Positions 4,032-42,263 of a stretch of 64,000 bases of DNA are shown one piece after another (positions within the stretch are counted from its first letter, which is position 1; each line of letters starts with the position of its first letter). A program made the position numbers and the translations under genes. This DNA comes from Mucilaginibacter sp. MD40 (GTDB lineage: Bacteria; Bacteroidota; Bacteroidia; Sphingobacteriales; Sphingobacteriaceae), in the NCBI RefSeq assembly GCF_002288635.1, contig NZ_NRSW01000001.1:4171004-4235003 (forward strand), read 5' to 3'. Below the pieces are notes generated by a model. The model had not been told where the DNA came from, ran no database searches, and was given only the letters and a program-made list of their open reading frames with translations.

Positions 4032-7000
4032 ATGGCATTTAATCCGGTAAGGAAGATGGCAGATAATATCGCGGCCATCCGGCTCGCCCTGGACTTTAAC
4101 GGGCAAAAGTTTTCCGATGCAGAGCTGCAAAAATTAAAAAAATACGCGGGCTTTGGGGGGCTTAAGGCTGTACTATTCCCGCCCGGGGAATTAGCCTCCT
4201 GGGAAAACTTCGGGGCCTCAAAGGCAGACCTTAAGCTCTATCCCCAGGTAATGGAACTGCATGAACTGTTACAGGAGAAACTGACTGCAAAAGATTATAA
4301 AGCGGCCATCGATGCCTTGAAAAGCAGCTCTCAAACGGCTTATTATACGCCTGATTTTTTACCAAGGGCGATCTATACCGCCATGCTGCAAAGCAACATT
4401 CTGCCAAAACGCCTGTATGAGCCCAGTGCCGGGGCCGGTGTTTTTATTGAAGAAGCCTCGCTCGCTTTTCCGGGATTGGAGCAGGTTACGGCCGTGGAAA
4501 AGGATATTCTAACAGGAAAGGTTCTGACCGCTATCTGTTCAACTTATGATGCGCCGATCGATGTGCAGATCAAAAGGCTGGAAGAAACGGCAGCAACCGA
4601 GAAGGGGCAATCGGATCTTATAATCAGCAATATCCCCTTTGGCAAGATCGCCGTTCATGATCCTGCTTATAACAAAAGCGGAATTTCCGCCAAGGTACAT
4701 ACCTACTTCTTTGCCAAAGGATTGGATAAGATCAAAGACGGCGGAATCCTGGCTTATATTGTTACGGATGCTTTCCTGAACAACCCGTCCAACGCCACCG
4801 CGCGGAAATATTTATTTACCTCTGCCGATCTTTTGACCGTAGCCGTTTTACCTGCTAACCTGATGAAGGAAAATGCCAACGTCGAAGTGGGTATGCACCT
4901 GATCCTGGTACAGAAAAATGATACCAAAGAAACCCTGACCGAAGCAGAAAGCCTGCTGTTGGACACCGTAGAAGTCGAAAACTCATTTGGGAAATATTAT
5001 ATTAATGCCTGGTTGGCCGACAAAAACGAACTGGTTTATGCTGATGAGATCATCGAGGGTACCAATTCACGGGGCAAAGCATCCAGAGTGGCCTGGCAAA
5101 ACGGTGACATGCTGGACATCATTCCCCAACTCAAAGAACAACTGGTTGCCGGATTCGGTAGCTTTGATTATGCGAAGTGGGAAGCTATTTCTTTTGACAA
5201 AAAGGGAAGCCAACTCAGGCAGTTCACTTTTTTACCTGTTCCGGAAAAAGAGAAAGCCACGGAAAAACCCGGCTTAAATTTCGGCCAGTTAGGTTTATTT
5301 GACGCCCCGGTTCAACCCGAATCGGACAATAAGGCGCTGGCTTACCTGGATGATCTCGACCGGCAATTTGTCGATGCGGAAACAGCACGTGTTGTAAGTA
5401 TTATCCGTACTACGCAGCGGCCGTTACATGACAGCGTAGTATTATTGACTGCCCGTGCCAAAGCGAGCAACAGGTTTAGTTATAAACTTTATAGTAACCT
5501 TTCAGAGTTATCTTTCCCCGCTAAATGGATGACCGGCGTAGCCCTTGGCCAGGAATTGGATGCCTTATCTGTTAAGCTGAAACAATATGGACATGATTAC
5601 CGCTATGAAGGCGACAGTACCTTAGAGCCTGCCTTTAGATTAGTAGCCGACCGGCCAAAAGCTTTTACGGACATCAAACCGTTCTACCAAAAAGATACAC
5701 TGGTAATCTTCGAAGGTAAGGTCGGGCTGATCGGTGAGCCACATAATTTTGAGGCGAAATTTGAGCCCCTTGATCCGCAGCCGGAATTGTTCTTTTTCGA
5801 GGACTACCTGACCCTGCGGGATATTTACCTGGAGCTATCCGGCTATGAAAACGAGCACGCTATCCAATTCCCCGAACTGCGCCAATCACTGAACTTTTAT
5901 TACGAGGCCTTTGTCAGTAAATACGGGGAACTGAACAATTCCGTCAACCGTACCCGGATCCTCAGCGATGCGGCATTAGGCTTTAAGGTGCTCTCCTCCC
6001 TGGAGATCAGGGAACTGGATAAATTTGTCCGGTCTGACATCTTTTATGGCCCGCTTTTTCAACAAAAAGAATTGCTGAAGACCGATGATCCTTTAGAAGC
6101 GCTCGCGCGATGCCTTAATGATACAGGTCGGGTCGAACTTTCGGTCATTGCCCAGGTCACCGGTTTAACGGAGGACGAGATCATTATTCAGTTGGATAAA
6201 CAGATCCTGTTAAACCCGCAAACGCTCGGCTGGGAAACTATCGACAATTATTTGTCGGGCAACGTTGTAGAAAAGTTAAAGATCGCGGAAAAGCTTGCCG
6301 TTGACGAACCGAATAATTTGCAATTTGCCAGGAGCCTTGCCGCGATCCGCCGGGTTCAGCCCGAACGGATACCTTTCGAACGGCTGGATTTCAACCTCGG
6401 GGAGCGATGGGTTCCCATCGCATACTATGAGCGGTTTGCCACAGACCTTTTTAAGCTGGATACGAAGATCAACTACCTCGTTTCCGTGGACGACTATAAG
6501 GTAACCTACGCTAAAAAAGGAAACACCATCACCAATGAGGAGTTCGCGGTCGCGCCCAAAGAAAGTAATAAAGTTACCGGCCGTACGCTGCTGGAATATG
6601 CACTGCTCAACACCAACCCACACTTCACCTACCCGGTTGAGCAGTACGGAAAGGTTGTAAGAGTGCCTGATACCGAGGCGATTCAAAATGCGCACCGCAA
6701 GATCGAACACATCAGGACGCGATACCTGCTTTGGTTGCTGGAGTTGCCTAACGAGGAAAAGCAGTACCTGGAAAAATTATACAACGATACCTACAACTGC
6801 TATGCCTTACGCGAGTTTGACGGTAGTCACCTCTCCCTTCCGGGCTTTGATTTTAAAGCATTAAAGATCGAAGATCTCTACCCTTCACAGCGAAATGCTG
6901 CCTGGCGGGTGATTCAAAATAACGGGGGGGTGATCGATCACGAGGTGGGACTGGGCAAAACACTGACGATGATCATTGCCGCCATGGAAATGAAGCGGCT

Positions 7001-9512
7001 CGGTATCGTCCACAAACCAATAATATTGGCGCTAAAAGCTAATGTGCAGCAGATCACCGATACGTTCCGGCTGGCTTATCCCAAAGCAAAGCTGCTGGCA
7101 CCCGGCGAAAATGATTTTGAACCCGCCAAGCGCAAAAGGATCTTCCACGAGATCAAAAACAATAACTGGGACTGTATCATTCTGACGCATGACCAGTTTG
7201 GTAAGATTCCGCAGGCGCCGGAAATTCAACGGCAGATCCTGGAGATCGAGCTGGAGAACACTGAACTGGATTTGTTGACTATCCAGAACGCCGGGGAAGA
7301 AATAAGCCGGGAGATGCTCAAAGGGTTGGAGATCCGAAAGGAAAATCTGGAAGCCAAACTGAAAGGTGTGATCGAAGCGATAGAACAACGCAAGGACACC
7401 GGTATCAATTTTCGCGAGATGAACATTGATCATTTGTTCATTGACGAATCGCATAAATTTAAGAACCTCACTTTTACCACCCGGCATACTAAGGTAGCCG
7501 GCTTGGGTAATATTGCTGGAAGCCAGAAGGCACTCAATATGCTCTTTGCTATCCGCACCTTACAGGATAGGTACAATACCGACCTGTGCGCGACCTTTCT
7601 TTCCGGCACCCCAATTTCAAACAGCCTGACCGAGATGTACCTGATTTTTAAGTACCTCCGTCCGAGGGAACTGGAGCGGCAGCGTATCTCCAACTTTGAT
7701 GCCTGGGCTGCGGTTTATGCACGAAAGACCGTGGATTTTGAATTTACGGTTACTAATGAGATCCGGGCAAAAGAGCGCTTTCGCCACTTTATCAAAGTTC
7801 CTGAACTGGCGCTGTTTTATAATCAGATTACCGATTACAAAACAGCGAAACACATCAACCTGGATAAGCCCGAGATCGATGAAACTCTGGTCAATATTAA
7901 ACCGACACCTGACCAGCAGGATTTTATCAAAAGGTTGATGGCTTTTGCCAAAACAGGGGATGCAACCCTGATAGGCAGGCGTCCGCTGACAAGGGATGAA
8001 GACAAGGGCCGGATGTTGATCGCCACCAATTATGCCAAGAAAATGGCAGTGGACATGCGCTTGGTCAACCCGGAAAAATATGATGACCATCCCGAAAACA
8101 AAGTCAATGTCTGTGCGCGGAACGTAGCATCGATCTATCATGAAAGTACACCGCATAAAGGAACGCAGATCATTTTCAGCGATATCGGCACACCAAAGCC
8201 CGGTGAATTCAACGTTTATGATGCCCTGCGGGATAAGCTGGTAACTGATTTTGATATTCCCGCAAACAAGATCACTTTTATTCATAATTGGGCGACGGAC
8301 AAACAACGCAAGGAACTGTTCAGAAGGATGAATGCCGGAGAAATCCGGATCCTGATCGGCAGTACTGAGAAAGCCGGAACCGGATTAAATGTGCAGGAGC
8401 GCATTGTTGCTATGCATCATTTGGACATTCCCTGGAAACCGTCGGAACTGGAACAACGCGACGGCCGAGGTGCCAGGCAAGGAAACTGGCTTGCCAAAAA
8501 TTTTTACGGCAATAAAGTCAGGAACTTTATTTATGCCGTGGAGCAATCTCTGGATAATTACAAGTTCAACCTGCTCAAAAACAAACAGATCTTTATTAGC
8601 CAGATGAAGAACAATGAGTTGTCCGTGCGTACGCTCGATGAAGGCGCTATCGATGAACAAAGCGGAATGGGCTTTTCTGAATACATCGCGATTTTATCAG
8701 GAGATACTTCATTACTTGAAAAGACCCGTTTGGAAAAAAAGGTGGCCGAACTGGAAGGTTATAAAAGTGCGCATTTCAAGGAAGTGTCCAGGAACCGTTA
8801 CCTATTAGAGGATTTGGAAAAAAAAAGCCGGGAAAACGGACAAACGCTGGAACTGGTGCGTAAGGATGAGCAGGCATATAAAGCTGTCCTAAAAAAAGAC
8901 GCTGATGGCGTTAAACTCAACCCCTTAAAGCTTCCGGATTCCGTTCAGCCACAAGCCATTGCCATTGGGAATTATTTTATCGAACTCTACAAAACCTGGC
9001 AACCTCCTGAACTCAGCAAGCCTGAACTACATTTGGGCGAACTGTACGGCTTTGATCTCTTTATCAGGCGAAAGATACAGTCGGTTGACACCGGGTTTTC
9101 CAGCCGTATCGAACACGTTACCTCTTTGTACGCGGAAAGCCGGACTACTGGAATCAAATACCTGCAAAACGGGGGTGCGCCTAATATCGATAATCCCAAA
9201 CTGGCCGCCCGGTACTTTCTGGAAGCGATCAACCGGGTGGTTGGCATGGCGGAACGTTATGAAAAGGAACTGGCGGGTATCAATCAGCAGATTCCGGAAG
9301 TGCGGGAACTCACCCAACGTCCGTTTGAACAGGAGTATGAACTGGCATCCCTGAAAAAGGATTTGTCAAAGCTGGAAATGGAGATCAGCAATAAAATTGC
9401 TGAACAGGATAAACTGGCGCTGGCGCAGCAGTCGCTTGATGTAGATCCCACACAACAGGAAGAGGTTGTTGAACAGGAGGCGGAGGTTGTGCCTATTATA
9501 GTGAAGCGCTAG
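4032..9512 (+). CDS. N6-adenine methyltransferase / SNF2-type helicase fusion protein (DarB-like)
   Basis: Giant 1826-residue protein. The N-terminal quarter holds a class I methyltransferase: a [13 protein letters not shown]-binding motif around residue 135 and the catalytic motif NIPFG (an NPPY variant) around residue 200. The central and C-terminal parts hold a superfamily 2 helicase: Walker A in HEVGLGKT near residue 972, motif II as DESH near 1137, SGTPISN near 1192, and motif VI with [10 protein letters not shown] near 1480. A coiled-coil tail ends in VKR. The architecture is common on Bacteroidota ICEs and resembles phage P1 DarB, an antirestriction protein. A role in protecting or remodelling transferred DNA is inferred. 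Confidence 0.88.
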
Positions 9513-9554
9513 TAACGTTTAAACCGGATAACTCAATAGTGTTGCCGATTTATC

Positions 9555-9584
9555 AAGCCACCCGCAAAAGCCGGTGGCTTTTTC
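9555..9584 (+). terminator. Probable intrinsic terminator after the methylase-helicase gene
   Basis: Perfect 8-bp stem AAGCCACC / GGTGGCTT with a 10-base loop, followed by TTTT. It sits 42 bases after the stop codon. It also shows that the GTG at 9574 is part of the hairpin and not the start of the coupling-protein gene. It may only partly terminate, since transfer genes continue downstream. Confidence 0.65.
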
Positions 9585-9603
9585 ATTTCAAACATTCCTG
9601 ATT

Positions 9604-11604
9604 ATGGAAGAAACCAGAGAGCAGCAAAAACTCCATGGGTTTCTGCAATGCGCCATCTATATATCCATAGGCTTAGAAGCTGCCATTTTTATTTACCATG
9701 ATGCCCCTTTCTGGGGCATTTTCTTTACCCCACTGGATAAGATCAGCCACCTGGTCATTTACTCCGCCCTGGTCTATAGTAAGCTGGCCACGTTTGGCCT
9801 GATCTGCCTGGTCAGCATCGGTACGCTGGCAAAAAAGAAAACAGACCTCGACCCTAAAAAACATATCATCTATCCGCTTACCATCGGTCTGTTTTTATTT
9901 TTCGGCAGCCTTATTTTTGCGGGTCGTGCCTCCCCGGTAGCATTTGCCTATACCACCTGGTATAACCTGCTTTACCTGGTTTGCTCCTTCGCCGGGGCGC
10001 TTATGGTAAGCGTGTCTATGGATAATATTTCCAAGTTCATCAAATCCGGTTTGGGCAAGGACAAATGGAATACCGAGGCCGAGAGCTTTATGCAGCCGGT
10101 TAAAAGGGTAGATACACCTTATTCGGTCAACATTCCCATGCTTTTCTATTACAAAGGAAAGGTGAGAAATGGGTGGATCAATATCTGCAATGTTTTTCGT
10201 GGTACGATGGTGATCGGTACACCAGGTTCCGGAAAATCGTTTAGTATAGTCAATCCCTTTATCCGTCAGCTGATTGCTAAAGAGTTTGCAGTATGTCTGT
10301 ATGATTTCAAATTCCCGGACCTCGGCCATATCGCTTACTACCATTATTTGCTGGCCAAACAAAACGGCAAATTGAAAGGCTTTGCCTTTCATGTCATCAA
10401 TCTTAATGATATTGAAAGAAGCCGCAGGATCAACCCCTGGAAGGCGGATTATATCCGCTCACTGGCCGATGCGGCAGAAACTGCCGAAGCTTTGGTGGAG
10501 GCATTGAAAAAAGGCGACCGCTCAGGTGGCAGTGACCAGTTCTTTACACAATCTGCTATCAATTTTTTAGCCTCATGCGTTTACTTCATGAGCAAGTACA
10601 AAGGGGGCACCTATTCCAGTTTTCCCCATGTGTTGGCCTTGCTTAACCGCTCTTACGAGGAAATATTTAACGCGCTGACCTCCGAGCCGGAACTGCGTTC
10701 CCTGCTATCACCCTTTATGACCGCGTATAACGCTAAGGCATTCGACCAGTTGGAGGGACAGATCGGCACCCTGAAGATATTTATAAGCAGGCTGGCCACA
10801 AAAGAAACCTATTGGGTCTTTTCCGGCAATGACTTTGACCTGAAAATTTCAGCAAAGGAAAATCCCGGAATGCTGGTATTGGCAAACGACCCGAACACCC
10901 AAAATATCAATTCGGCCTGCTATTCGATCATCATCAACCGCCTGACTAAGCTGATCAACACCAAAGGCAATTTGCCTTCGGCCCTGATCGTGGATGAGGT
11001 GCCCACCTTATTTGTTCACCGGGTGGAGAATCTCATTGCAACTGCCCGTTCAAATAAGGTGGCGGTGTTAATGGGGTTACAGGAATTACCTCAATTCAAT
11101 CAGCAATATGGTAAAGATACCGCTGCCACCATCACGGCCGTAGTAGGTACCGTGCTTTCTGGCTCTGTAAGAAATAAGGACACATTGGAATGGTTGGAGC
11201 GCCTATTTGGTAAATCCAAACAGATCGGTGAAGGCCTGTCTATCGACCGCAATAAAACTTCTACGTCCCTGAATGAAAAACTGGAAGCCCTTATCCCGGC
11301 AGGGAAAATCGCATCACTCAATTCCGGCGAGATGGTTGGCGTAATTGCCGCCGATGCACAGGAAAAGTTTACCGGCCAATTTGAAACTTCCGCCATCAAC
11401 TGCCGGATCAATCTCGATATGGAAGCCATTAAAAGGGAGGAAAAAGGCTATAAAACTTTGCCGTCCTTTTATGATTTTGGCGGGAAGCTCGATGAAAAAC
11501 TCCGGCAGAACTTTAACCATATCAGCCAGGAAATACAGGAAATGGTATTGGCATTCAAGCCACCTACACCGGTTATACCAGTTAAAGCCACCATGAGAAA
11601 ATGA
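9604..11604 (+). CDS. VirD4-like type IV coupling protein (MobC/TraG-type ATPase)
   Basis: A 666-residue inner-membrane ATPase that delivers the relaxase-DNA complex to the mating channel. About four hydrophobic segments occupy roughly residues 15-140. The ATPase domain follows, with Walker A in GTPGSGKSFS (about residue 206) and Walker B in ALIVDEVP (about 460), then the conserved ARSNKVAVLMGLQELPQF segment typical of coupling proteins. ATG 9604 is preferred because the in-frame GTG 9574 lies in a terminator hairpin. In CTnDOT nomenclature the equivalent protein is MobC. The gene overlaps the next one by 4 bases. No relaxase or MobB gene is visible in this window; these should lie to the left. 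Confidence 0.9.
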   Translation: MEETREQQKLHGFLQCAIYISIGLEAAIFIYHDAPFWGIFFTPLDKISHLVIYSALVYSKLATFGLICLVSIGTLAKKKTDLDPKKHIIYPLTIGLFLFFGSLIFAGRASPVAFAYTTWYNLLYLVCSFAGALMVSVSMDNISKFIKSGLGKDKWNTEAESFMQPVKRVDTPYSVNIPMLFYYKGKVRNGWINICNVFRGTMVIGTPGSGKSFSIVNPFIRQLIAKEFAVCLYDFKFPDLGHIAYYHYLLAKQNGKLKGFAFHVINLNDIERSRRINPWKADYIRSLADAAETAEALVEALKKGDRSGGSDQFFTQSAINFLASCVYFMSKYKGGTYSSFPHVLALLNRSYEEIFNALTSEPELRSLLSPFMTAYNAKAFDQLEGQIGTLKIFISRLATKETYWVFSGNDFDLKISAKENPGMLVLANDPNTQNINSACYSIIINRLTKLINTKGNLPSALIVDEVPTLFVHRVENLIATARSNKVAVLMGLQELPQFNQQYGKDTAATITAVVGTVLSGSVRNKDTLEWLERLFGKSKQIGEGLSIDRNKTSTSLNEKLEALIPAGKIASLNSGEMVGVIAADAQEKFTGQFETSAINCRINLDMEAIKREEKGYKTLPSFYDFGGKLDEKLRQNFNHISQEIQEMVLAFKPPTPVIPVKATMRK

Positions 11605-12020
11605 AAGAAGAACCTAATGAAATACAATTACCCCACTATTTGCTGGTACACCCTGATTTGAAAGATGACCCAGTACAAAAACAAGGTGAGATCGGGTTTA
11701 TTACGGCAGCGATCCTGAACACCGATGAGTTTTATGTGGGTTTTGACGACCACCTGATTGGTTTCTATGGTGCTGACGCGCTGCTCACTTTTAAAGAGCC
11801 GAGCGAAATCTATGATTTTATGCATCAAAATGCGCTGACCTTATCCGTGGATGATTTTAAAGACTTGAAAAACATCGCGCTGTTGTTAGATCATGGAACG
11901 CAAAAACATATCCGCACTGCCATGGAATTGGTTAAAAAGAACGGTAACATTCACGATGCGGTAACCATTGGTTTAGACAAGTTTCTTGGAATAGATCAAA
12001 CCAGGGGCTTGAAAAGATAG
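11601..12020 (+). CDS. Paralogous ICE accessory protein, copy 1 of 3
   Basis: A 139-residue soluble protein, ATGA-overlapped with the coupling-protein gene. It shares with the next two genes a pattern of V-x-P-x-L, then G-x-IG, then YVGF or similar, then A-x-x-LL-x-LK, then a helical C-terminal half containing LL-x-x-G. The first half looks like a small beta domain, the second is helical. It ends in LKR. I do not recognise a named family. Tandem triplication inside the transfer operon, directly after the coupling protein, points to a conjugation accessory role. Confidence 0.75.
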   Translation: MKEEPNEIQLPHYLLVHPDLKDDPVQKQGEIGFITAAILNTDEFYVGFDDHLIGFYGADALLTFKEPSEIYDFMHQNALTLSVDDFKDLKNIALLLDHGTQKHIRTAMELVKKNGNIHDAVTIGLDKFLGIDQTRGLKR

Positions 12021-12076
12021 CGACTTACAGGCAGAACGGCCATTTATAAATCAAACAAACATTTAAAGCAATAAAC

Positions 12077-12481
12077 ATGAAACAGGAAGAAACCATGGGA
12101 TTAATGGTCATGGTCAGCCCGGTCCTCTGGACTTCTGACCATTGTGGCAAAATCGGCCTCATTGAATTTACAAACTTTGAGGCTGATAAAATATGGGTAG
12201 GATTTGAGGACGAGGAAGTAGGTTCTTTCAGCGCTAAAACACTGTTTGTCCTGAAAACTACCGAAGAATTAAAGGAATTGGCGGAAAAGTTCAAGTCTGT
12301 GCAATGGCCGCCTGTAGCTCAAAATCTGCAAACCCTGGCTTTGCTACAGGCATCCGGGGCACCCGAGCAACTGAAAAAAGCCTATATACTTATACAGGAT
12401 GACCCGGAACTTCATCGCGAAGCTACCATCCGGTTAAACGAGGTCATGGACTTAACGCCGACACGAAAAGTTGGCAGGTAA
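12077..12481 (+). CDS. Paralogous ICE accessory protein, copy 2 of 3
   Basis: A 134-residue protein with the same two-part layout as its neighbours: VSPVLW, then GKIGLI, IWVGFED, AKTLFVLK, and a helical half with LALLQASGAPEQLKKA. It ends in RKVGR. The three copies have diverged to low identity, so this is an old family expansion and not a recent duplication. Function unknown. ATG 12077 gives the conserved N-terminus. Confidence 0.75.
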   Translation: MKQEETMGLMVMVSPVLWTSDHCGKIGLIEFTNFEADKIWVGFEDEEVGSFSAKTLFVLKTTEELKELAEKFKSVQWPPVAQNLQTLALLQASGAPEQLKKAYILIQDDPELHREATIRLNEVMDLTPTRKVGR

Positions 12482-12501
12482 TCATTAAACAATTAAACAT
12501 C

Positions 12502-12909
12502 ATGGAAAATCAAACTTTAGCCGGTACACTCGTTTTGGTGAAGCCGGATTTAGAAATTGGCCCCGATGCAAAACGGGGCCAGATTGGCGTGTTAACCTAT
12601 GCCAGGTCTGAAACAGAAAACTATGTAAAGTTCCCGGAAGGTGGGGAGGCCTATTATCCTGCGGAGCAGGTGTTGATGCTCAAGGATAAACAGGAGATCT
12701 TTAATGACCTGACCAGCAACGGCTCGTCCATGCCGCTCAATGATTTTAAGGGTATGTATAAGATTATGCTGTTGCAGGACAGGGGCACATCTCAGGCCCT
12801 GTACGCTGCTTTAGCTATCGCCAATGATCATCCCGGTTTACAGGAAAAAGTGTTGGACTCCATCAGTCCAGCACAAAAACAGGAACTGGCCAAAACGTAT
12901 AGCCGATGA
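12502..12909 (+). CDS. Paralogous ICE accessory protein, copy 3 of 3
   Basis: A 135-residue third member of the tandem family: VKPDLEIG, GQIGVLTY, NYVKFPEG, AEQVLMLK, then IMLLQDRGTSQALYAA. It ends in TYSR. The stop codon overlaps the start of the M23 peptidase gene (ATGA), suggesting coupled translation. No catalytic motif or membrane segment is visible. Function unknown. Confidence 0.75.
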   Translation: MENQTLAGTLVLVKPDLEIGPDAKRGQIGVLTYARSETENYVKFPEGGEAYYPAEQVLMLKDKQEIFNDLTSNGSSMPLNDFKGMYKIMLLQDRGTSQALYAALAIANDHPGLQEKVLDSISPAQKQELAKTYSR

Positions 12910-13370
12910 AACTACTGATCAGCTTTTACCTGGTCTGCCTGCCCCTCAAACATCTTAAAATAAATTCAGAATACGGTTGCCGCATCCACCCGCTTACCGG
13001 CAAATATGCCATGCATGCGGGTGTTGATCTCAAAGCCCGCCATGATACCGTCTACGCTATCCTGAGTGGTTTGGTCAGATCCACCGGCTATGATAATGGC
13101 CTGGGTATAAACATTCGGCTGACCCATGGCGCGGTTGAATCCATATACGGTCACCTCAGTCAAATTTTTGTAATACCCACCGATAGCGTAACCGCTGGTG
13201 AGCCTATCGGCATCACCGGGGCTACCGGACACGTGACCGGCGAGCACCTGCACTTCAGCATTTGCTACGGGCATCAATACATCAATCCAATCAAATTTTT
13301 ATATGAACTGCTAATTAAACAAGAACATGAGCAAAAATTTCAAAGCACTTCCCGTTCAGCTTTCAGATAA
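12906..13370 (+). CDS. M23-family peptidoglycan endopeptidase of the transfer operon
   Basis: A 154-residue LytM/M23 zinc peptidase. The metal ligands are visible as H37 and D41 in HAGVDL and H116 in EHLHF, with H114 as the catalytic histidine; the SEYGCRIHPLTGKYAMHAG stretch is typical of the family. A short hydrophobic N-terminus could act as a signal. Such enzymes open the cell wall locally for mating-channel assembly. The gene overlaps the preceding gene by 4 bases and the next by 44 bases, so its last 14 codons are shared with the ArdC-like start in another frame. Confidence 0.85.
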   Translation: MKLLISFYLVCLPLKHLKINSEYGCRIHPLTGKYAMHAGVDLKARHDTVYAILSGLVRSTGYDNGLGINIRLTHGAVESIYGHLSQIFVIPTDSVTAGEPIGITGATGHVTGEHLHFSICYGHQYINPIKFLYELLIKQEHEQKFQSTSRSAFR

Positions 13371-14502
13371 GCTGATCGCGGAGATCAAGGAGGGTAATTC
13401 CCTGTTTCAAAAATCGATTAAAGATAATGGCATGCCCGCTTTTGTCAAGCCGATAAATCCAACCACCGGGAAAGGCTATAGCGCAATGAACGCGCTGATC
13501 CTGGGCATGCAACGTCACGACGACCCGCGCTGGATGTCGGCCGATGCTGCCCGCTATGCAGGTAATTGGGTAAAAAAGGACGAAAAGGGCACCCTAATCG
13601 AGTTCCCGAAAACAAGCGATATTCAGGCCATCCGTACAGCGGAAGGAAAAACGATCAAGGATGATCAAGGCGTCACCCAAACTAAAACAGTAGAATTTGA
13701 CAAGCCACAGCGCGGCCAGGCCTTCCTTTTTAACGCGGAACAGATGAAGGACATCATGCCTTTAGACGAATTTTTTCAGAAACAGGAAGCGGAACAAACG
13801 CTGGACCCGACAGAGCGGGCCATGAAACTTGTTCATGATAGCAAAGTGGAGATCATTCATGGCGGTCAGGAGGCTTATTATGATAAACAACATGATGTGA
13901 TCTTCCTGCCCGAGCCTGAGACTTTTGGCAACGAGGTGAAATATCTGCAAGCCGCTATTCATCAATTAGCCCATGCGACCGGGCATGAAAGCCGTCTGAA
14001 CCGCCCTATGGAAGGCAAGTTCGGTTCAATGGAGTATGCACGCGAAGAATTACGCGCGGCGATTGCCGGCGTTCTGATTGGCGGTGAGTTAAAGATCGGC
14101 CACAATTTCGGACACCAGGCGGCCTACATGAATAGCTTCGCCAAGATCTTAAAAGATGAGCCTTTTGAAATCGCCAAGGCTTCCAGGGATGCGCAAAAGA
14201 TCGCGAATCTCCTGTTAGGTGTAAATCAGAAAAGGGAGCAGAAGCAGGGTGCGGAAGCGGGTTTTAAAAAAGGGGACGAGATCGCCTATATGGATACAAC
14301 CTACAAGGTGCTGGAGACATACAAAACCAAAAGCATCAAAGTGGAAGATGCCGAAGGTACCCGCAAAGTATTAAAACCCGAATATGGTCTTTATAAATCC
14401 TTGCTGGAAGCCAAAACAAATCCGCGCGAACCAGAGATGGTGCTGGAAGAAGAACAGGGCCAGTCCGAGGAGCAGGGTCAGCAACATAAAATAGGCCGTT
14501 AG
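13327..14502 (+). CDS. ArdC-like antirestriction protein with degenerate zincin site
   Basis: A 391-residue protein. The N-terminal ~140 residues match the ArdC ssDNA-binding domain layout (NPTTGKGYSAMNALIL, DDPRWMSADAARYAGNWVKK, then QRGQAFLFN). From about residue 160 follows a zincin-type metallopeptidase domain with HQLAHATGHESRL and the downstream YAREELRAAIAG segment. The family motif is HExxH; here codon CAA gives glutamine in place of the catalytic glutamate, so proteolytic activity is doubtful. A linker and a small KGDEIAYMDTTYKVLE domain follow. It ends in HKIGR. ArdC proteins protect incoming DNA from restriction, and some are transferred to recipients. Confidence 0.82.
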   Translation: MSKNFKALPVQLSDKLIAEIKEGNSLFQKSIKDNGMPAFVKPINPTTGKGYSAMNALILGMQRHDDPRWMSADAARYAGNWVKKDEKGTLIEFPKTSDIQAIRTAEGKTIKDDQGVTQTKTVEFDKPQRGQAFLFNAEQMKDIMPLDEFFQKQEAEQTLDPTERAMKLVHDSKVEIIHGGQEAYYDKQHDVIFLPEPETFGNEVKYLQAAIHQLAHATGHESRLNRPMEGKFGSMEYAREELRAAIAGVLIGGELKIGHNFGHQAAYMNSFAKILKDEPFEIAKASRDAQKIANLLLGVNQKREQKQGAEAGFKKGDEIAYMDTTYKVLETYKTKSIKVEDAEGTRKVLKPEYGLYKSLLEAKTNPREPEMVLEEEQGQSEEQGQQHKIGR

Positions 14503-14503
14503 T

Positions 14504-15274
14504 ATGAATCCGATAATGTTTCAAGAAAATGAACTCCCGGTCAAGGACCTGGAGACTATAGGGCTGGCAACAGGCGGTCAACTCCTGTTAAACGTCGATG
14601 ACCTGAAGGCTTTGCTTTCAGGTCGCCGCACAAGCTTAATGGAACTGCATGACCTGGAAGCCGAAAATGTCAAAATCAAATCGATCAATGCCAAAATATC
14701 ACTGAAGCCAAATGAAAAGGGTCAGCTGGATCTTTTGATCCACCCGATTTACCGGAATGCGGAGATACCTGATCTGTTGACCAATGATGAAGCCCTGCAA
14801 CTGCAAAAGGGTGAAGTTGGCAGCGTGCTGAGAATTGCCCTCGATAACCATGGCAATAAGAAGGAAATGCTGGTCGAATATGACCCGGAAACAAAGGAGT
14901 TTATTGTTTCGGATACAGAGAAGATCTTAGCCCCTGATATGGTCAATAATGAATTCCTGACCCAGGCTCAAAAAGAGAATTACCGGAAGGGCAAGGAAGT
15001 GCAGATACCTGATGGCACCCGCTTCAGCTATTCGGCAACAGATAAGCACGGCATCCGCTCCAATAAACTGGCACTGGTTGCATCCATCCTGATGGATGGC
15101 GGTTTATCCTATATGGTATTTAAGGGGCTGAATGCCTTATTCAACCAGAAGCGTGACCAAAAGGCTGCTGAGAAATTGAGTCCCGGTTATTACCAGGCGA
15201 TCAAGGATATTGAAAACCAGCATGGGTTCAAGCCGCATGAGTTTGAGCGCTCGCAATCCCGAAAAGGACGGTAA
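14504..15274 (+). CDS. DUF4099/DUF3945-like ICE protein
   Basis: A 256-residue soluble protein. The N-terminal ~60 residues (LETIGLATGGQLLLNVDDLK, then LLSGRRTSLMEL) resemble DUF4099. The middle carries the DUF3945-like pattern FLTQAQKENYRKGKEVQI. These domains recur in Bacteroidota conjugative elements; their biochemical role is not established. The start lies 1 base after the ArdC-like stop. The C-terminus is very basic, ending in SRKGR. Family assignment is from remembered pattern, not from a search. Confidence 0.65.
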   Translation: MNPIMFQENELPVKDLETIGLATGGQLLLNVDDLKALLSGRRTSLMELHDLEAENVKIKSINAKISLKPNEKGQLDLLIHPIYRNAEIPDLLTNDEALQLQKGEVGSVLRIALDNHGNKKEMLVEYDPETKEFIVSDTEKILAPDMVNNEFLTQAQKENYRKGKEVQIPDGTRFSYSATDKHGIRSNKLALVASILMDGGLSYMVFKGLNALFNQKRDQKAAEKLSPGYYQAIKDIENQHGFKPHEFERSQSRKGR

Positions 15275-15279
15275 GGTCA

Positions 15280-15876
15280 ATGAATCCACTTTTAACAGGG
15301 CTTGGCATTTCTTTGGAGATCCAGGCTTTTTTTGGGGCAGCAAGTGAAATAACCTTTAGCTATGGCGATCAGTTTGAGCGATATGGCTCAGATTATCATA
15401 TTGTGCCCTCCACCCATAACCTTTGGGTGGCCGGCCTGCCTAATGCAACCCATCTGATCATTACTTATTCAGTTATGGAAGCGATGGCGTTTATCACGCT
15501 TAATCGCCATCGTTTTCCACGGCTGGAGCAACTGGCATTTGTGGCTATCGGCAATAGGCTGCATGTAGAACAGGGAGATTGGCTTAGGGAGAATTTTCCT
15601 GGGCGAAAAGTTACCCTGGTTTTCGGCAAAGACATGATCGGGCATATTACCGATATCAAATTAGCTGCGGCTATCAAGGGTATATTGCTGAGGATAACTT
15701 CTAAGGATAACGAAATCCATATTTACCGTGATAAATGGTTACAGATATTTACGCAGGAGCAAATTTCCCTGCATGCTTTTCAGGAAGCTTTCGGTATTCG
15801 CCCTCGCTTCCGAACCGGCAAGCCGGTTCAATCATTAACTTTTTTAGACCAATTAAAATATGACTCAGAACGATGA
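15280..15876 (+). CDS. ICE protein, possibly a degenerate Toprim-like domain
   Basis: A 198-residue soluble protein, 5 bases after the DUF4099 gene and overlapping the next gene by 17 bases. The order ITYSVMEAMAF, then FVAIGN, then VTLVFGKDMIGHITDIKLAA parallels the Toprim layout (an E motif, a small-residue strand, a DxD helix), but the first aspartate position reads glycine (FGKD). If the fold is right, the catalytic metal site is altered. The homology is tentative; otherwise the protein is unrecognised. It ends in DSER. Confidence 0.5.
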   Translation: MNPLLTGLGISLEIQAFFGAASEITFSYGDQFERYGSDYHIVPSTHNLWVAGLPNATHLIITYSVMEAMAFITLNRHRFPRLEQLAFVAIGNRLHVEQGDWLRENFPGRKVTLVFGKDMIGHITDIKLAAAIKGILLRITSKDNEIHIYRDKWLQIFTQEQISLHAFQEAFGIRPRFRTGKPVQSLTFLDQLKYDSER

Positions 15877-16318
15877 TATTTTATTAAGGCCGGCCATGCT
15901 GTTCGCCTTTTTCAAAGCGTTCCCGCTTATCCTGTTAGCGCTGACTTTTCTACTGCTGGCTTGGTACCTCTCGCCTTATTTTGTTCTATTTAGCCCCGCC
16001 GTATGCGGCGTTGCCTGGTACCGTCTGCTATACATCCGGAGTTTTAAGTATTTGGTTAGCGCGGAGTATATCCTGATCACAAAAGGAATATTCTTTAAAC
16101 GCATTGACCAGGTGGAAATGTTTCGGGTGAAGGATTACATTATCACACAGCCTTTCATTTTACAAATTTGCAGGCTAATGTACCTCACCTTAAAAAGTAC
16201 AGATGAAGAAAACAAGGTTATCCGTTTGGAAGGTATTCCTGAATCCGGCATCCTTGATACCATCCGCGATAGGGTTTTGAGCGCCCGTAAAAACAATAAT
16301 ATTTACGAAATAAATTAA
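15860..16318 (+). CDS. bPH2-domain membrane protein (YdbS-like), copy 1
   Basis: A 152-residue protein with two adjacent transmembrane segments at about residues 15-60, followed by a bacterial PH domain recognised by SAEYILITKGIFFKRIDQVE and the DYIITQPFILQICRLMYLTL stretch. This is the DUF304/bPH2 layout. A second copy with the same layout lies at 16844-17341. PH-like membrane proteins are not a standard part of the conjugation machinery, so their job here is unknown. Confidence 0.75.
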   Translation: MTQNDDILLRPAMLFAFFKAFPLILLALTFLLLAWYLSPYFVLFSPAVCGVAWYRLLYIRSFKYLVSAEYILITKGIFFKRIDQVEMFRVKDYIITQPFILQICRLMYLTLKSTDEENKVIRLEGIPESGILDTIRDRVLSARKNNNIYEIN

Positions 16319-16365
16319 CTAAACGCTTGGATATTGCTAACTTATTTAGTAATTTTAATTAATAA

Positions 16366-16653
16366 ATGAATGTCATGAAAGCGATTGTACGTAACATCTT
16401 ATTAGCCTGTATCATTTCCATGTTTGCCTTTTTTGGGGCAGTTGCACGGAAGCATACCAAGGCTGAAATGACTGAAGCACAAAAGGCAGAGGCGAGAAAG
16501 GAGACTTTAACCTGTTTGGCGGTTGCCTTCATTGCCTGCGGTGCCTGTGCATGGAGGTGTAACGTTCTTTATAAAAGAATTAATGAAGAGCGGGAGTACC
16601 AGCGCAGGTTTAACGATTACATGCGTAATTCTGCGTTTAACAGGCATTATTAA
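16366..16653 (+). CDS. Small hypothetical membrane protein
   Basis: A 95-residue protein with two hydrophobic segments (about residues 8-27 and 47-62) separated by an acidic/basic helix rich in Lys, Glu and Ala. An internal ATG at 16375 is an alternative start. It sits between the two bPH2 proteins, so the three may act together at the membrane. Family not recognised. Confidence 0.55.
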   Translation: MNVMKAIVRNILLACIISMFAFFGAVARKHTKAEMTEAQKAEARKETLTCLAVAFIACGACAWRCNVLYKRINEEREYQRRFNDYMRNSAFNRHY

Positions 16654-16843
16654 ATTTAATTATTAATTTAGCAGCATCTTAAAAGCCGGCATTCCTGCCG
16701 CGCAATTGTGATAAGGTTTAGGTTGAAAGTCTCCGGCAGCGAGTGTTTGGGGACTTTTATTTTTAGCCCAATCCCAATTATCCCGGCCATACAAGTCCCG
16801 GCCAGGACAGTCTATCCCATTAATTGACCCTTTAATTATCGTT

Positions 16844-17341
16844 ATGAGAAATCCATCGATGGGTATCGTGCCGTTAAGGCCGTCTATCCGATATATGTTA
16901 ATTTGTACAGCCCCCTGGCTTATTCTGTTTTATGGACTTCTACTTGCCACTCTTCTGGTAAGTCCTTTTGCCCTGATCGTATGCTGGCTATCATTGCTGG
17001 CCTTCTTTTATCACCTGTTCTTGCTTTGCGCGGAATCTTATGTGATGAGCCCCGATCTTTTTATAGTGAACAAAGGCTTGTTGCAAAAATCGGTAACCTG
17101 CCTGCCGCACCTTCAATTAAAAGATTATCGCGTTCATCAAAGCAGGCTGATGAACTATCTTGACATTGTTACCATTTCCTTTGTTACCAAAGATGATCAG
17201 CAACTGATGATCAAATTAAAAGGTATTGATCGAACCGCTTTACAAAGCGCTTATCGAAATATCATTGATCAACTCGAAAGCAGGCAGGCCGGTTGTAAAT
17301 ATCTCCTTGATTTATTCGAAAAACTCACACATCATCAATAG
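16844..17341 (+). CDS. bPH2-domain membrane protein, copy 2
   Basis: A 165-residue protein with two TM segments (about residues 15-62) and a bPH2-type domain (SPDLFIVNKGLLQKSVTCLP, then DYRVHQSRLMNYLDIVTI). It is clearly paralogous in layout to the protein at 15860-16318. A 190-base gap precedes it, so it may have its own promoter. Its stop lies 4 bases before the next gene. Confidence 0.72.
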   Translation: MRNPSMGIVPLRPSIRYMLICTAPWLILFYGLLLATLLVSPFALIVCWLSLLAFFYHLFLLCAESYVMSPDLFIVNKGLLQKSVTCLPHLQLKDYRVHQSRLMNYLDIVTISFVTKDDQQLMIKLKGIDRTALQSAYRNIIDQLESRQAGCKYLLDLFEKLTHHQ

Positions 17342-17345
17342 CAGT

Positions 17346-18140
17346 ATGGAAACGTTATCAGTGCTATTGGTCATTGGTTCGACTCCCTTTATGATTGAAC
17401 CGGAAAATTTACAGCTGAGGCAATTTAACAAACAGGATAATGTTATCGCCTTCGATAGCCTCACACAGCAGAAAGGGTATTATTCCGCTACGTTTGATAC
17501 AAGCCGCCACAAGGTCATCGTGAAGGAAAAAAAATTTGGCGAACATCATGCGGATACGATCGACGTTGTTCTTCCATCACAAATACTCCATTCACCGAAC
17601 TCTTTAACCGACGATCAGGTGAGTGATTTGAACCTGTTAAGTAAAGGCAAAGAACTCGGATTTTTTCTTGCTGATCGGGATACGGCGCTTAGATTATCGG
17701 GAGTACTTCTGAATATTGACTTGGCAGGTACAGATTTTACCATTGACTGGCGTCTGAAAGAGCTGAGAGAAACGGAATTTCCATGGAAGAACATCAGTTT
17801 ACGGGATATGGAAATGTCGGATAACGGAGAAGAATATCTTTGCTTTTATCACATAGATACCCACGAGCTGTATATACCCGGCGAAGACCTTTTTGAACTT
17901 CCTCAAAACGTAGTGCTGCTGGAAATACCCAACGAAATCAAGCTCGATCCGGTGGCCGTGGCCAGGGAATTTGGTATCGGTGAAACAGACCTTTTACCGG
18001 ATCATCCCTTTCAGATGAACATTGCTGCCAGGGTAACCCCGCTATCTGAAACCGGGTTGTCCGCTTTTATTGCAGAATACATCAAAAGGCGAGACCATTT
18101 AACAGCGGATGATAGTCTTGTTCGCAGACGGGGACGATAA
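17346..18140 (+). CDS. Hypothetical ICE protein of unknown function
   Basis: A 264-residue soluble protein. ATG 17346, just after the bPH2 stop, is preferred over an in-frame ATG at 17226 lying inside the previous gene. There is no signal peptide, membrane segment or recognisable catalytic motif. The sequence is acidic until its last residues, which are a basic tail ending in RRRGR. I do not recognise the family. Confidence 0.65.
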   Translation: METLSVLLVIGSTPFMIEPENLQLRQFNKQDNVIAFDSLTQQKGYYSATFDTSRHKVIVKEKKFGEHHADTIDVVLPSQILHSPNSLTDDQVSDLNLLSKGKELGFFLADRDTALRLSGVLLNIDLAGTDFTIDWRLKELRETEFPWKNISLRDMEMSDNGEEYLCFYHIDTHELYIPGEDLFELPQNVVLLEIPNEIKLDPVAVAREFGIGETDLLPDHPFQMNIAARVTPLSETGLSAFIAEYIKRRDHLTADDSLVRRRGR

Positions 18141-19771: not shown

Positions 19772-21103
19772 CTAAGCAACCTCTTTATTTATGGCATTGA
19801 ATTTGGTCACAGGCTGATCTGCCGGCTCTTTCTTTTTGCCACCCCGCGTAATAAGCGCCCCGTTTATAGCATTGGTGATGATACTATCCTCTAAGTCTGC
19901 TAAATATATACGGGTATCAGCCTGTGTTTCGTGCCCCATAGCTTCCTGGATGATCTTGATATCGACATCCGCCTCATTTAAATGGCTGGCGAATCCATGA
20001 CGCAAGGCATTTGATGTAAACTGTTTATTCCATCCCACAGCCTCCGCCATAGCTTTTGCATCTTCGTTGAAATCCTTTAACGCGGAATCGATTCTCACAT
20101 CAATTTTCTTTGCCGAATCATGTTCTTTCATGACGAACGGAAAGATGTAACCCGCATCTGACTGCTCGTGAAAGTCTTCAAATAAATTAATGATCCGTAC
20201 AGCCTCCGGGTGCAATTCGAAATCATAATTTCGTTTGTTCTTGGAACGTTTATAAACAATGCCGTTATTGACAAACTGTTCTTTTTTCAGCTTGATCATG
20301 TCATTGAAGTTCATTCCCCTTGCATAATACATAAATTGCATAAGCAGGTGGGAGCGGTAAATCCGCGTATCCTTGGCAGGCTTGAGGTTAAGCAACCGTT
20401 CCCAATAATCCGATTTGATCGACCTCTTTTTTGTTCTGATCCTTTTATAGGCTTTAAATTTAATATACTTTTTGGGATGGTGATCCTTGCTGCACAATCC
20501 ATCCTCAATGGCTAGGTTCCAAACCCGGTAATAAGTTCTTAGATAATGACTTCTGGTCGATTCGCTTGTTCCGGAGATCTGCCGTTCATAAGCTTCGTGA
20601 TCTGCTTTCGTAAAAGCAAGAAACATCTTATCCTTATCCTTCAGCAATTTTTTTACGGTGAGTTTGTTGTTATAAAACACATTTGCATATCCCGGATTGT
20701 CAATGGCGTCATAATGATCAACAAGGGACTGGATATAAGCCAGTATCCTATTTGGCTTTTCAGCAGCAGGGGTTAAGCTTACATTGGAAGTAAGGGCGGC
20801 TTTAATCTCTACATGGGTGATCAAACGACCAGCCTTTTCAGCGGTTTTAATCTCATAATGTATATCATCCTCCATCTTTTTGATCTTGGAAACTAAGGCT
20901 TTGTACTTAGGATGAGACGATCTTGGGCTATTGTTTTCGCTATTCCAATTTGCAATAGAACTACTATAACCCGTAGACATGTATTTAGTATCACGGTTCT
21001 GCGTCATTCTGATCCTAACTTCATGCTCACCCATGACGTAGTTATTTTCAGTGTCTAAAATTGTCCGATACGTCCATAGTACCGCTTTAACTGCAATTTC
21101 CAT
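19772..21103 (-). CDS. int: Tyrosine recombinase (ICE integrase)
   Basis: A 443-residue site-specific recombinase. The N-terminal part carries the Bacteroidota arm-binding region, the middle the SAM-like core-binding domain (YANVFYNNKLTVKKLLK), and the C-terminal part the catalytic domain: an arginine in YARGMNFNDMIKL near residue 262, ALRHGFASHL near 368, GHETQADTRIYL with the nucleophile tyrosine near 399. The HxxR histidine position reads asparagine, as often seen in Bacteroidota integrases. It is transcribed away from the att site about 210 bases to its right. Confidence 0.92.
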   Translation of the reverse strand: MEIAVKAVLWTYRTILDTENNYVMGEHEVRIRMTQNRDTKYMSTGYSSSIANWNSENNSPRSSHPKYKALVSKIKKMEDDIHYEIKTAEKAGRLITHVEIKAALTSNVSLTPAAEKPNRILAYIQSLVDHYDAIDNPGYANVFYNNKLTVKKLLKDKDKMFLAFTKADHEAYERQISGTSESTRSHYLRTYYRVWNLAIEDGLCSKDHHPKKYIKFKAYKRIRTKKRSIKSDYWERLLNLKPAKDTRIYRSHLLMQFMYYARGMNFNDMIKLKKEQFVNNGIVYKRSKNKRNYDFELHPEAVRIINLFEDFHEQSDAGYIFPFVMKEHDSAKKIDVRIDSALKDFNEDAKAMAEAVGWNKQFTSNALRHGFASHLNEADVDIKIIQEAMGHETQADTRIYLADLEDSIITNAINGALITRGGKKKEPADQPVTKFNAINKEVA

Positions 21104-36743: not shown

Positions 36744-38663
36744 TTAGTAATGGTAACGTACAAAAGCCTCCATAGCGGCATATTCGGCCATACCTAATTT
36801 ATCGTAGGCCTGTGCTGTTTCGCGGTTGCGGTCTTCGGCACGTACCCAAAACTCGCGCGCGTCGTCACCAGGGAAAACAGGGCGGTCTTTTTGCGATTGA
36901 TGTTTAAAGATAGCGTTGCGTTTGCGTAACACCTCTGCCGGTGATAGCGGAACCGCCATCTCAATTTCGTGCGTTGGGAATTCCTGCCATGCACCACGGT
37001 ACATCCATACCCAGCAATCCTTTACCCAGTCTTCTGTCTGGCGCAAGCGGCGCAACGATTCAATGATGATATTGAAACATACTACGTGTGTGCCATGCGG
37101 ATCGGCAAAGTCACCTGCGGTAAATACCTGGTGCGGTTTCACTTTTTGCAGCAACTCCATTGTCAGCCTGATATCTTCCTCGCCAACCGAATTTTTTTGC
37201 GTTTTACCGGTTTCGTAAAAAGGCAGCGCCTGAAAATGTATATTACTATCAGGTACCCCCGCGTAACGCGCACCGGCAATCGCTTCGGTTTTACGTATAA
37301 AGCCCTTTACATCACGTATCTCCGGCGTATCTATCTGGTTAGGCTTTTTGGTGACCATAAATTTGCGCATATCTTCATATATGCCTTTCATTTTAGCAGT
37401 GTCCTCTCCTACGCTTTCTTTAAAGTCTATAGCAAATTCCATAAAGCGTAACACATCATCGTCCCAAACAGCAGTATTGCCTGATGTTTGATATGCCACA
37501 TGCACATCATGCCCTTGGTCAACCAGGCGGATAAACGTACCACCCATTGAGATCACATCATCATCGGGGTGCGGAGAAAATACAATAGAGCGTTTGCGTG
37601 CAGGTTCTGCGCGTTCCGGGCGCTGGCTATCGTCAGATCCTGGTTTACCACCCGGCCAACCGGTAATAGTATGCTGTACCTGGTTAAATATATCAATATT
37701 GATCTGGTAAACCGGGCCCTTTTCTACCGCCAGTTGGGCCATACCATTGTTGTTATAATCCTCTTCGGTAAGTTTAAGAATAGGCTTACCTACCGCGGTT
37801 GATAACCATATCACCGCTTTCTTGATCAGTGTTTCATCCCAAACACAGTCTTTAACCAACCATGGCGTATCAAAACGGGTTAAGCCCGACGCGGCATCAA
37901 CATCCAGCACAAACTCTACGTTGTCTGATAGCTGCAGGTAAGTAGCAGGCACATCACCTGATATTTCGCCCTCCACAGCCTGACGAATAATAGGCGCTTT
38001 TTTAGCGCTCCAGGCCATCAGGATAATTTCGCGCGCTTTAAAGATGGTGCCTACCCCCATTGTAATGGCCTTAGTAGGCACATTTTGCTTACCACCAAAA
38101 TCACGCGAGGCATCGCGGCGGGTAAGGTCGTCAAGGGTTACCAGGCGTGTACCCGAGTTTGGCGCTGAGCCCGGTTCGTTAAAACCGATGTGACCGGTAC
38201 GACCTATACCTAATATTTGCAGGTCAAGCCCGCCCAGTTCTTCTATCTGTCTTTCATACTCCAAACAAAACGCGGCTACATCATCAGCCGCGAGTGTACC
38301 ATCAGGTATGTGTACATTGGCCTTGTCAATATCTACATGGTTAAACAGGTTCTCATTCATGAAGGTCACGTAGCTCTGGTCGGCATCCGGCTTCATGGGA
38401 TAATACTCATCAAGATTAAAGGTGATCACATTTTTAAAAGATAACCCCTCCTGTTTGTGCAGCCTTACCAGTTCGGCATACACCTGTATAGGGGTAACAC
38501 CTGTAGCCAGGCCCAACACTGCCTGCTGTCCTGCTGCCTGTTTGCTGCGTATCAGATCGGCTATGCGCTTAGCAACAGCCACCGAAGCCGCTTTCTGGTC
38601 TGAGTAGACCGTTACCGGCAGCTTCTCATACCGGGTTTCTTCTAATAAATTTAATCGTGCCAT
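36744..38663 (-). CDS. nagB: Glucosamine-6-phosphate deaminase fused to a PIG-L deacetylase domain
   Basis: A 639-residue two-domain protein. Residues about 1-270 are NagB, which converts glucosamine-6-phosphate to fructose-6-phosphate and ammonia: VITFNLDEYYPM and GIGRTGHIGFNEPGS are diagnostic. From about residue 360, RSIVFSPHPDDDVISMGG opens a PIG-L/LmbE zinc deacetylase domain whose HPDD supplies the metal ligands. Such fusions are widespread in Bacteroidota. The second domain might deacetylate N-acetylglucosamine derivatives, feeding the first, or act in bacillithiol synthesis as BshB does; neither is proven. Confidence 0.93.
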   Translation of the reverse strand: MARLNLLEETRYEKLPVTVYSDQKAASVAVAKRIADLIRSKQAAGQQAVLGLATGVTPIQVYAELVRLHKQEGLSFKNVITFNLDEYYPMKPDADQSYVTFMNENLFNHVDIDKANVHIPDGTLAADDVAAFCLEYERQIEELGGLDLQILGIGRTGHIGFNEPGSAPNSGTRLVTLDDLTRRDASRDFGGKQNVPTKAITMGVGTIFKAREIILMAWSAKKAPIIRQAVEGEISGDVPATYLQLSDNVEFVLDVDAASGLTRFDTPWLVKDCVWDETLIKKAVIWLSTAVGKPILKLTEEDYNNNGMAQLAVEKGPVYQINIDIFNQVQHTITGWPGGKPGSDDSQRPERAEPARKRSIVFSPHPDDDVISMGGTFIRLVDQGHDVHVAYQTSGNTAVWDDDVLRFMEFAIDFKESVGEDTAKMKGIYEDMRKFMVTKKPNQIDTPEIRDVKGFIRKTEAIAGARYAGVPDSNIHFQALPFYETGKTQKNSVGEEDIRLTMELLQKVKPHQVFTAGDFADPHGTHVVCFNIIIESLRRLRQTEDWVKDCWVWMYRGAWQEFPTHEIEMAVPLSPAEVLRKRNAIFKHQSQKDRPVFPGDDAREFWVRAEDRNRETAQAYDKLGMAEYAAMEAFVRYHY

Positions 38664-38709
38664 AAAAGGTTATTTAATTGTTCAATATCTAAAAAAATCA
38701 GGGCAAAAA

Positions 38710-38735
38710 AAATCCCCACCTAAAAAGTGAGGATT
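38710..38735 (-). terminator. Probable terminator of the permease-PLP enzyme operon
   Basis: Stem AAATCCCCAC / GTGAGGATTT with one bulge; on the minus strand it is followed by a T run. It lies 130 bases after the PLP enzyme stop and before the nagB start. Confidence 0.6.
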
Positions 38736-38864
38736 TACAACCAATTAACTAAATAAATTAACTCCCTATGCAGGAGCAAGTTTGATTTTATATCTGATGT
38801 ACCTAAAATCATTACACAAACTTAGTAAATAATTATTCAGTAGCAAAATACTTTTTAAAATTAT

Positions 38865-40031: not shown

Positions 40032-40034
40032 TGT

Positions 40035-41375: not shown

Positions 41376-41475
41376 GTTATATTTTTAAATAAAAATTGTA
41401 TTTTAAACTTGTTGTAATTGAAATAGAAAAGTGTTTAATTCGTTTGGAAAACTAAACCGCCCTATTAAAATTATT

Positions 41476-42156
41476 TTGAAGCAATTTAAACAAATATTAC
41501 TTACAGGTATATGGATGTTTGCTTTTGTACCGGCTCTGTTTGCGCAAAGCGGTAAAGAGCACAAAGCTTCGTTAAAAACCCGTAAAGTAAAATTTGCTTC
41601 CGCGCAGAAAAACCTTATAACAAGCCAGCAGCTTAAAAATTTTTTACAACTGGTAGCTGATGCCAATGCCACATTCAGCTTTCCCAAAGGCTTTAAAGAA
41701 ATAAAGGCGCCCAATAACGAGGATGTTTCTTTCGATTATGCCATGGAGATGCCTGGTAAAGATTTTGAGTTATGGCTGCAGGTACGCTCACAAAAAGAGA
41801 ACTGGGCAGCCTATGAAAAAACGCTTAACGATAAGGCTAACCAGCAGGCTAATCCCGATTCATTATACTACGAAATAGGAAAAGCGCAGGCGCTGGCCTT
41901 CTCGGGTGATAACGCTCCGCTTGAGCGGGTACTACCCGCCAGCATAGCCGACCGATACAACGCCGATGCCGGCCGTTCCTTTATGATTAACCTGCCCGAC
42001 GAGAAAATAACCAAGCATTACCGCTATGCATTGCTTATAACGCTGCAAAAATTCCACACAGGTACCATAATGGCTGTTTGCTTTTCTAACCAAAAAGGAC
42101 CCGAGTTTTTCCGGAATATTGTTGGCGCCAGCAATTGCATAAAGTTTAAGCCCTGA
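41476..42156 (+). CDS. Secreted hypothetical protein
   Basis: A 226-residue protein if it starts at TTG 41476, which gives a good signal peptide (KQFKQILLTGIWMFAFVPAL followed by FAQS). The in-frame GTG at 41431 would place 15 residues before it. The mature part is alpha/beta with no recognised catalytic motif. It contains AFSFPKGFKEIK-like and ITLQKFHTGTIMAVCF-like stretches but no family I can name. It lies alone upstream of parE. Confidence 0.6.
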   Translation: MKQFKQILLTGIWMFAFVPALFAQSGKEHKASLKTRKVKFASAQKNLITSQQLKNFLQLVADANATFSFPKGFKEIKAPNNEDVSFDYAMEMPGKDFELWLQVRSQKENWAAYEKTLNDKANQQANPDSLYYEIGKAQALAFSGDNAPLERVLPASIADRYNADAGRSFMINLPDEKITKHYRYALLITLQKFHTGTIMAVCFSNQKGPEFFRNIVGASNCIKFKP

Positions 42157-42214
42157 TAATAAGTGGTGTGGATATGTTAAGATTTTTAAATGCTCATTTA
42201 AAAATCAGTATGTT

Positions 42215-42222: not shown

Positions 42223-42263
42223 CAAATAGGGCCTTCCGCGCCCGTAAGTACTACTGAGAAATT

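Follow-up and report, generated by a model that had tools for sequence, protein, structure and literature searches.

The 64,000-nucleotide stretch of the Mucilaginibacter sp. MD40 genome considered here (the window, taken at its full length; G000:C1:4171004-4235003) carries part of a conjugative element, which starts upstream of the window and reaches approximately to the integrase at 19772-21103. Its non-homologous relaxase, primase, methylase-helicase, ArdC-like, DUF4099 and 17346 proteins, together with three small paralogs, have in common one terminal residue, arginine (Arg). Comparison of homologs reveals strong purifying selection on this Arg, as an amino acid and at the exact C-terminus. 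The tag is real and selected and probably serves conjugative delivery, and we favor, at a probability of roughly 0.7 and from sequence evidence, the reading that it is a C-terminal sorting tag for conjugative protein translocation, recognized by the coupling protein or the type IV secretion system (T4SS). If this is true, a family of soil-bacterium mobile elements would follow a simple, testable rule for the proteins sent with DNA.

The first-pass annotation had noted that nine of the ten genes from 4032 to 18140 encode proteins ending in Arg (VKR, LKR, KVGR, YSR, AFR, KIGR, RKGR, SER and RRGR) and that the tenth, the coupling protein, ends in MRK, all of which can be read in the DNA. The ten genes of this operon, followed by two more of the element that lie outside the window, are:

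4032..9512, + strand, methylase-SNF2 helicase of 1826 amino acids, ending IIVKR (Arg codon CGC, 9507-9509)
9574..11604, + strand, type IV coupling protein (T4CP) with TrwB_AAD_bind and TraG-D_C domains, ending MRK, untagged
11601..12020, + strand, small paralog A, ending GLKR (AGA, 12015-12017)
12077..12481, + strand, small paralog B, ending KVGR (AGG, 12476-12478)
12502..12909, + strand, small paralog C, ending TYSR (CGA, 12904-12906)
12906..13370, + strand, M23 peptidase, ending SAFR, outside the tagged set, its Arg coincidental
13327..14502, + strand, ArdC-like protein with ArdcN and zincin metallopeptidase (MPTase-PolyVal) domains, ending HKIGR (CGT, 14497-14499)
14504..15274, + strand, DUF4099 protein, ending SRKGR (CGG, 15269-15271)
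15280..15876, + strand, 198-amino-acid "Toprim-like" protein, ending DSER, outside the tagged set, its Arg coincidental
17346..18140, + strand, 264-amino-acid protein with no known domain, ending RRRGR (CGA, 18135-18137)
G000:C1:4161007-4162011, relaxase (Pfam Relaxase, E 7e-17), ending KKARTNTR
G000:C1:4158972-4159913, primase (CHC2 and Toprim domains), ending PFER

Terminal Arg is found in only 19 of 359 predicted host genes (5.3%; terminal lysine, 14.8%), a background drawn from 19 stretches of 20 kb in the same genome and from the window at 21.3-64 kb. Naive binomial p values are about 3e-11 for nine of ten genes and about 1e-7 for seven of ten, with a gene set chosen post hoc, and because the ten genes were so picked it is their homologs that provide the real test. 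The C-terminal end was read for each homolog in loci centred on ArdC homologs, amounting to about 45 elements from Mucilaginibacter and other Sphingobacteriaceae, and homologs clustered at 70% identity served as representatives. Every match to the small paralogs ends in Arg (70/70, or 65/65 of those longer than 100 amino acids and 38/38 representatives; 39/39, 8/8 and 23/23 for paralogs A, B and C, respectively), and in the paralog alignment Arg139 of paralog A is among six invariant columns. The DUF4099 protein retains it in 57 of 60 homologs (27/28 representatives), the methylase-helicase in 17 of 19 (5/5 representatives), with all ten intact methylase-helicases of the same clade, the 4032 protein included, ending in Arg and those of related clades in [KR]-hydrophobic or RGVL, and the 17346 protein in 10 of 12 (10/12 representatives). 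For ArdC the figures are 56 of 66 homologs and 26 of 34 representatives; its other ends (Q, H, I, G) belong mostly to distant paralogs at 24-30% identity, and operon-linked ArdC proteins supply few exceptions.

Control families behave otherwise. Among representatives, terminal Arg was found in none of 21 T4CP, 18 bPH2, 10 ParA and 3 TraK proteins, in 1/18 TraM and 2/24 TraN proteins (3/45 for TraK, TraM and TraN together) and in 4/25 NikA-like proteins, and the helix-turn-helix (HTH) regulator also lacks it, as the first-pass annotation had noted for the neighboring channel, bPH2, HTH and integrase proteins. Over all loci the tagged families end in Arg in 118 of 124 cases, as against 14 of 221 for the control families. 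Unbiased clustering of the 917 predicted genes in the homolog loci yielded a two-humped distribution: the five clusters with tagged proteins are 61-100% Arg-ended, the lowest value arising because ArdC and M23 were merged through their overlap, those of the 16366 and 15280 proteins are at about 30%, and every other cluster with at least six loci is at 10% or below. The small predicted protein at 16366-16653 (Arg in 9/29 homologs) is intermediate and fits neither group.

The proposal of a selected terminal signal is thus strongly supported, the homolog comparison, a check that could have refuted it, having been passed by seven of the nine families. The two that drop out are the M23 peptidase (Arg in 4/33 representatives), already described as the weaker case on account of the overlap of its gene end with the ArdC start, and the Toprim-like 15280 protein (6/32, with codon CGA each time), whose gene end overlaps the bPH2 gene; since homologs do not retain the Arg of either, we regard both as coincidental.

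What is conserved is the residue itself. In most tagged families the ten residues that precede the last show identities of 0.10-0.21 between 70% representatives, and in the small paralogs, DUF4099 and methylase-helicase the last residue itself matches in 0.93-1.00 of pairs. On gene trees built with the last 20 residues left out, the codon at the last position of the small paralogs changed 25 times and the amino acid never, with 20-35 amino-acid changes at each preceding position. The corresponding codon and amino-acid changes are 29 and 3 for DUF4099, 8 and 1 for the methylase-helicase and, in sets that also take in other element types, 30 and 8 for ArdC, 25 and 9 for the relaxase and 20 and 8 for the primase; those of the T4CP control are 38 and 35. 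These counts bear directly on the idea that translational coupling or stop-codon context merely happens to yield an Arg codon, to which the several genes that overlap or abut the next lend some color, such overlap perhaps accounting for the Arg of M23 and 15280. Yet the tagged families are non-homologous and between them use each of the six Arg codons and each of the three stops, the relaxase and primase belong to a separate gene cluster, and because codons change without the amino acid changing, chance and a nucleotide-level cause are both very unlikely; this explanation is already disfavored, and we give it next to no credence.

Neither a longer motif nor a basic tail seems to define the signal. 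The [KR]-x-G-R tail proposed at first did not hold up, as the last Arg alone is invariant and position -2 is in most cases one of G (31%), S (25%), K (15%), T and R. Nor need the tail be basic, as had been supposed by analogy with other secretion signals: the mean net charge of the 20 C-terminal residues is +5.7 for the relaxase, +1.5 for DUF4099, +0.7 for the small paralogs, -1.4 for ArdC and, from two 60%-identity representatives, -4.0 for the methylase-helicase. The three small paralogs form a tandem at 11601-12909 with 25-30% identity. The AlphaFold2 model of paralog A has an SH3/Tudor-like barrel and, after it, helices; its mean predicted local distance difference test (pLDDT) score of 86 falls below 50 over the final six residues. 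Given this low terminal score and the fixation of the last residue only, the signal resembles a free Arg at the C-terminus of a flexible tail.

The function of the tag is best approached through the relaxase and primase, which lie 9-12 kb upstream of the window in a gene cluster apart from the T4CP-side operon, and which end in Arg in 27 of 30 (mostly as RTNTR) and 24 of 30 fetched loci, respectively. Transfer of the relaxase is obligatory in conjugation, and that of conjugative primases has been reported in other systems. No shared Arg end was found among the T4CP, Tra, NikA-like and ParA-like proteins of the element loci. Since the relaxase and primase share the tag, and control proteins do not, the reading with the best support is the export of antirestriction cargo, with a tagged group broader than the antirestriction set first envisaged. 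A general mark of soluble mobile-element proteins with no common function would suit the fact that the tagged proteins all appear soluble and element-encoded, and would have to explain why the soluble ParA, NikA-like, Toprim-like 15280 and HTH regulator proteins do not carry it; already disfavored, it is highly improbable. The main rival is that Arg docks the proteins on a shared donor-side partner (relaxosome, T4CP or chaperone) for DNA processing, the accessory proteins never being exported. Relaxase and primase are indeed DNA-processing enzymes, the tag is element-specific, and docking and export tags predict an identical comparative pattern; all the same, a relaxosome accessory protein (NikA-like) and ParA lack the tag, and ArdC is described (PMC5512222) as protecting DNA that enters the recipient, so that we consider docking unlikely.

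Under the export reading, the C-terminal Arg would be bound by the coupling protein of the element or by its T4SS gate, and the tagged proteins would travel to the recipient with the strand bound to the relaxase, or beside it. In the recipient, the role of the primase, ArdC and methylase-helicase would be to begin synthesis of the complementary strand and to shield the arriving DNA from restriction; the methylase-helicase, ArdC, DUF4099, small paralogs and 17346 protein are putative DNA-protection proteins. The candidate reader at 9574 belongs to a clade related to, but distinct from, CTnDOT-type MobC: it matches NF041326 with an E value of 7e-169 and 563 bits, below the curated cut-off of 900.

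The tag is not universal, and other element types have shared ends of their own. In a second, related type of element, whose coupling protein is CTnDOT-like (L273-L284, L292-L301, L307, L311-L317), 11 of 13 methylase-helicases end in [KR]-hydrophobic (RMRL, GVKI, RIRI, KLKL and others), as do all eight adjacent proteins of 264-410 amino acids (GPKL, RPRF, RRKL and others), compared with 4.2% of host genes, both sets having been chosen after the pattern was seen; this end is a possible clade-specific code. Three consecutive proteins of pBF9343-type Bacteroides plasmids end in KFKL, TMKL and SIKL, three of Phocaeicola salanitronis in KLKF, KMKM and TFRL, and the zincin, DUF3945 and toprim proteins of a Bacteroides ovatus plasmid each in Arg. 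CTnDOT-type relaxases and DUF4099 proteins have different ends, such as SNNL, SLNL and KGRKM. That conjugative elements of Bacteroidota mark their cargo with a short C-terminal code, R-COOH or [KR]-hydrophobic-COOH depending on the clade and read by the cognate coupling protein, strikes us as an evenly balanced proposition.

The coexistence of codes also informs on whether Arg might be a proteolysis or processing signal, be it a C-degron, a carboxypeptidase site or a mark for the zincin domain of ArdC. C-terminal residues are frequent protease determinants and the operon does encode a zincin domain. A host protease would be expected to impose one code per host, yet genome G213 of the genus Mucilaginibacter holds methylase-helicases ending in LAR (L271) and in GVRL (L307), in different elements, which makes an element-encoded reader likelier than a host protease. 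ArdC itself carries the tag, and Pontibacter plasmids have an Arg-ended relaxase and DUF4099 with ArdC elsewhere and not Arg-ended. Processing is accordingly an improbable explanation, and the reader of the tag is probably encoded by the element.

Several observations weigh against a translocation tag. The methylase-helicase, at its 1826 amino acids, would be a very large substrate. Plasmid-borne ArdC proteins end in KRKF or KRKI next to an Arg-ended relaxase and DUF4099, three primases of clade-1 elements end in GFSY, GRSV and GFSI, and CTnDOT-type relaxases do not have the [KR]-hydrophobic end of their neighbors. Moreover, the export of the tagged proteins is something that we infer from their sequences.

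Some features of the genes and loci may be added. The 4032 protein matches Pfam Eco57I MTase (methyltransferase), SNF2 and Helicase_C, and the 13327-14502 protein ArdcN (1.8e-15) and MPTase-PolyVal (4e-36), with T4CP and tra genes adjoining. The small paralogs and the 17346 protein have no family in Pfam, PHROGs or PADLOC, and 15280 has no Pfam match. Foldseek searches with the small-paralog model gave weak SH3/Tudor-like matches alone (best E 0.25), and AlphaFold2 modelled the 17346 protein poorly (pLDDT 44). A split 17346 homolog in L036, one of the two exceptions in that family, has a downstream fragment ending KRGR, and the exceptions among methylase-helicases include the disrupted gene of L033/L086, from the metagenome-assembled genome of Mucilaginibacter sp. 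44-25, which falls into two open frames, the downstream one ending IKR. A second related element resides in the same genome at G000:C1:3771000-3805000 (L059, L169, L224), with Arg ends on its relaxase (KARTNTR), primase (PFVR), methylase-helicase (FGGR) and ArdC (GRKR). Candidate cargo includes an unknown family of 284-292 amino acids, Arg-ended in four of four cases (TIGR, KVGR or TRGR; L091:13110-13988, L092:13076-13954, L095:3870-4742 and L101:4530-5384), and further Arg-ended single proteins of no known family in L056, L094 and L095. In pBF9343-type Bacteroidales plasmids (L201:12760-16154, L258:5370-8701) the consecutive DUF4099, DUF3945 and toprim proteins share a hydrophobic-[KR]-hydrophobic end. 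Another shared tail occurs at 37325-44437 of the joined L295-L297 (G130:C10), where a row of proteins ending RRGHKPG, RKGYKPG, RRGQKPG and similar immediately precedes, on the upstream side, the primase and relaxase.

Signals for conjugative protein transfer have been described as variable and hard to recognize even within one system. Were the terminal Arg such a signal, the full set of recipient-bound proteins of an element, unknown ones included, would be readable from sequence, with new cargo families identified by their last residue. Delivery of DNA-protection proteins together with DNA would become directly testable, and the specificity of coupling proteins would become accessible in a phylum that abounds in the gut and in many soils. 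None of the papers searched describes a conjugation signal consisting of a terminal Arg, which does not prove that there is none, and the searched text of a 2025 T4SS review does not mention Bacteroidota.

Known systems offer partial parallels. The Dar system of phage P1 has, by description, a large protein, DarB, said to protect entering DNA; DarB is a methylase-helicase, but is delivered by the phage particle and not by a T4SS. VirB/D4-type T4SS signals are likewise C-terminal, contain positive residues, serve several substrates and have the coupling protein as expected reader; positive charge in the C-terminal transport signals of Agrobacterium Vir proteins was reportedly established by Vergunst in 2005. 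The difference is that here one final residue is the invariant, on a tail that as a whole is often acidic, as in ArdC and the methylase-helicase. Polyvalent and ArdC proteins offer a parallel for the cargo: ArdC-N proteins with zincin domains occur in conjugative elements and are proposed to be delivered with the DNA, and PMC5512222 describes such proteins, notably ArdC and TraC1, as transferred with it. The delivery header proposed there is the N-terminal ArdC-N domain, and the passages searched do not mention a shared C-terminal signal. Finally, an F-type T4SS translocates several plasmid proteins beyond the relaxase (PMC8406263), and the signals of the F plasmid conjutome are C-terminal as well, being rich in positive or hydrophobic residues, variable within the system and sometimes internal (PMC11288057). 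Both systems would thus deliver many proteins besides the relaxase; what sets the present elements apart from the F conjutome is that almost all predicted substrates of a given element share their terminal residue.

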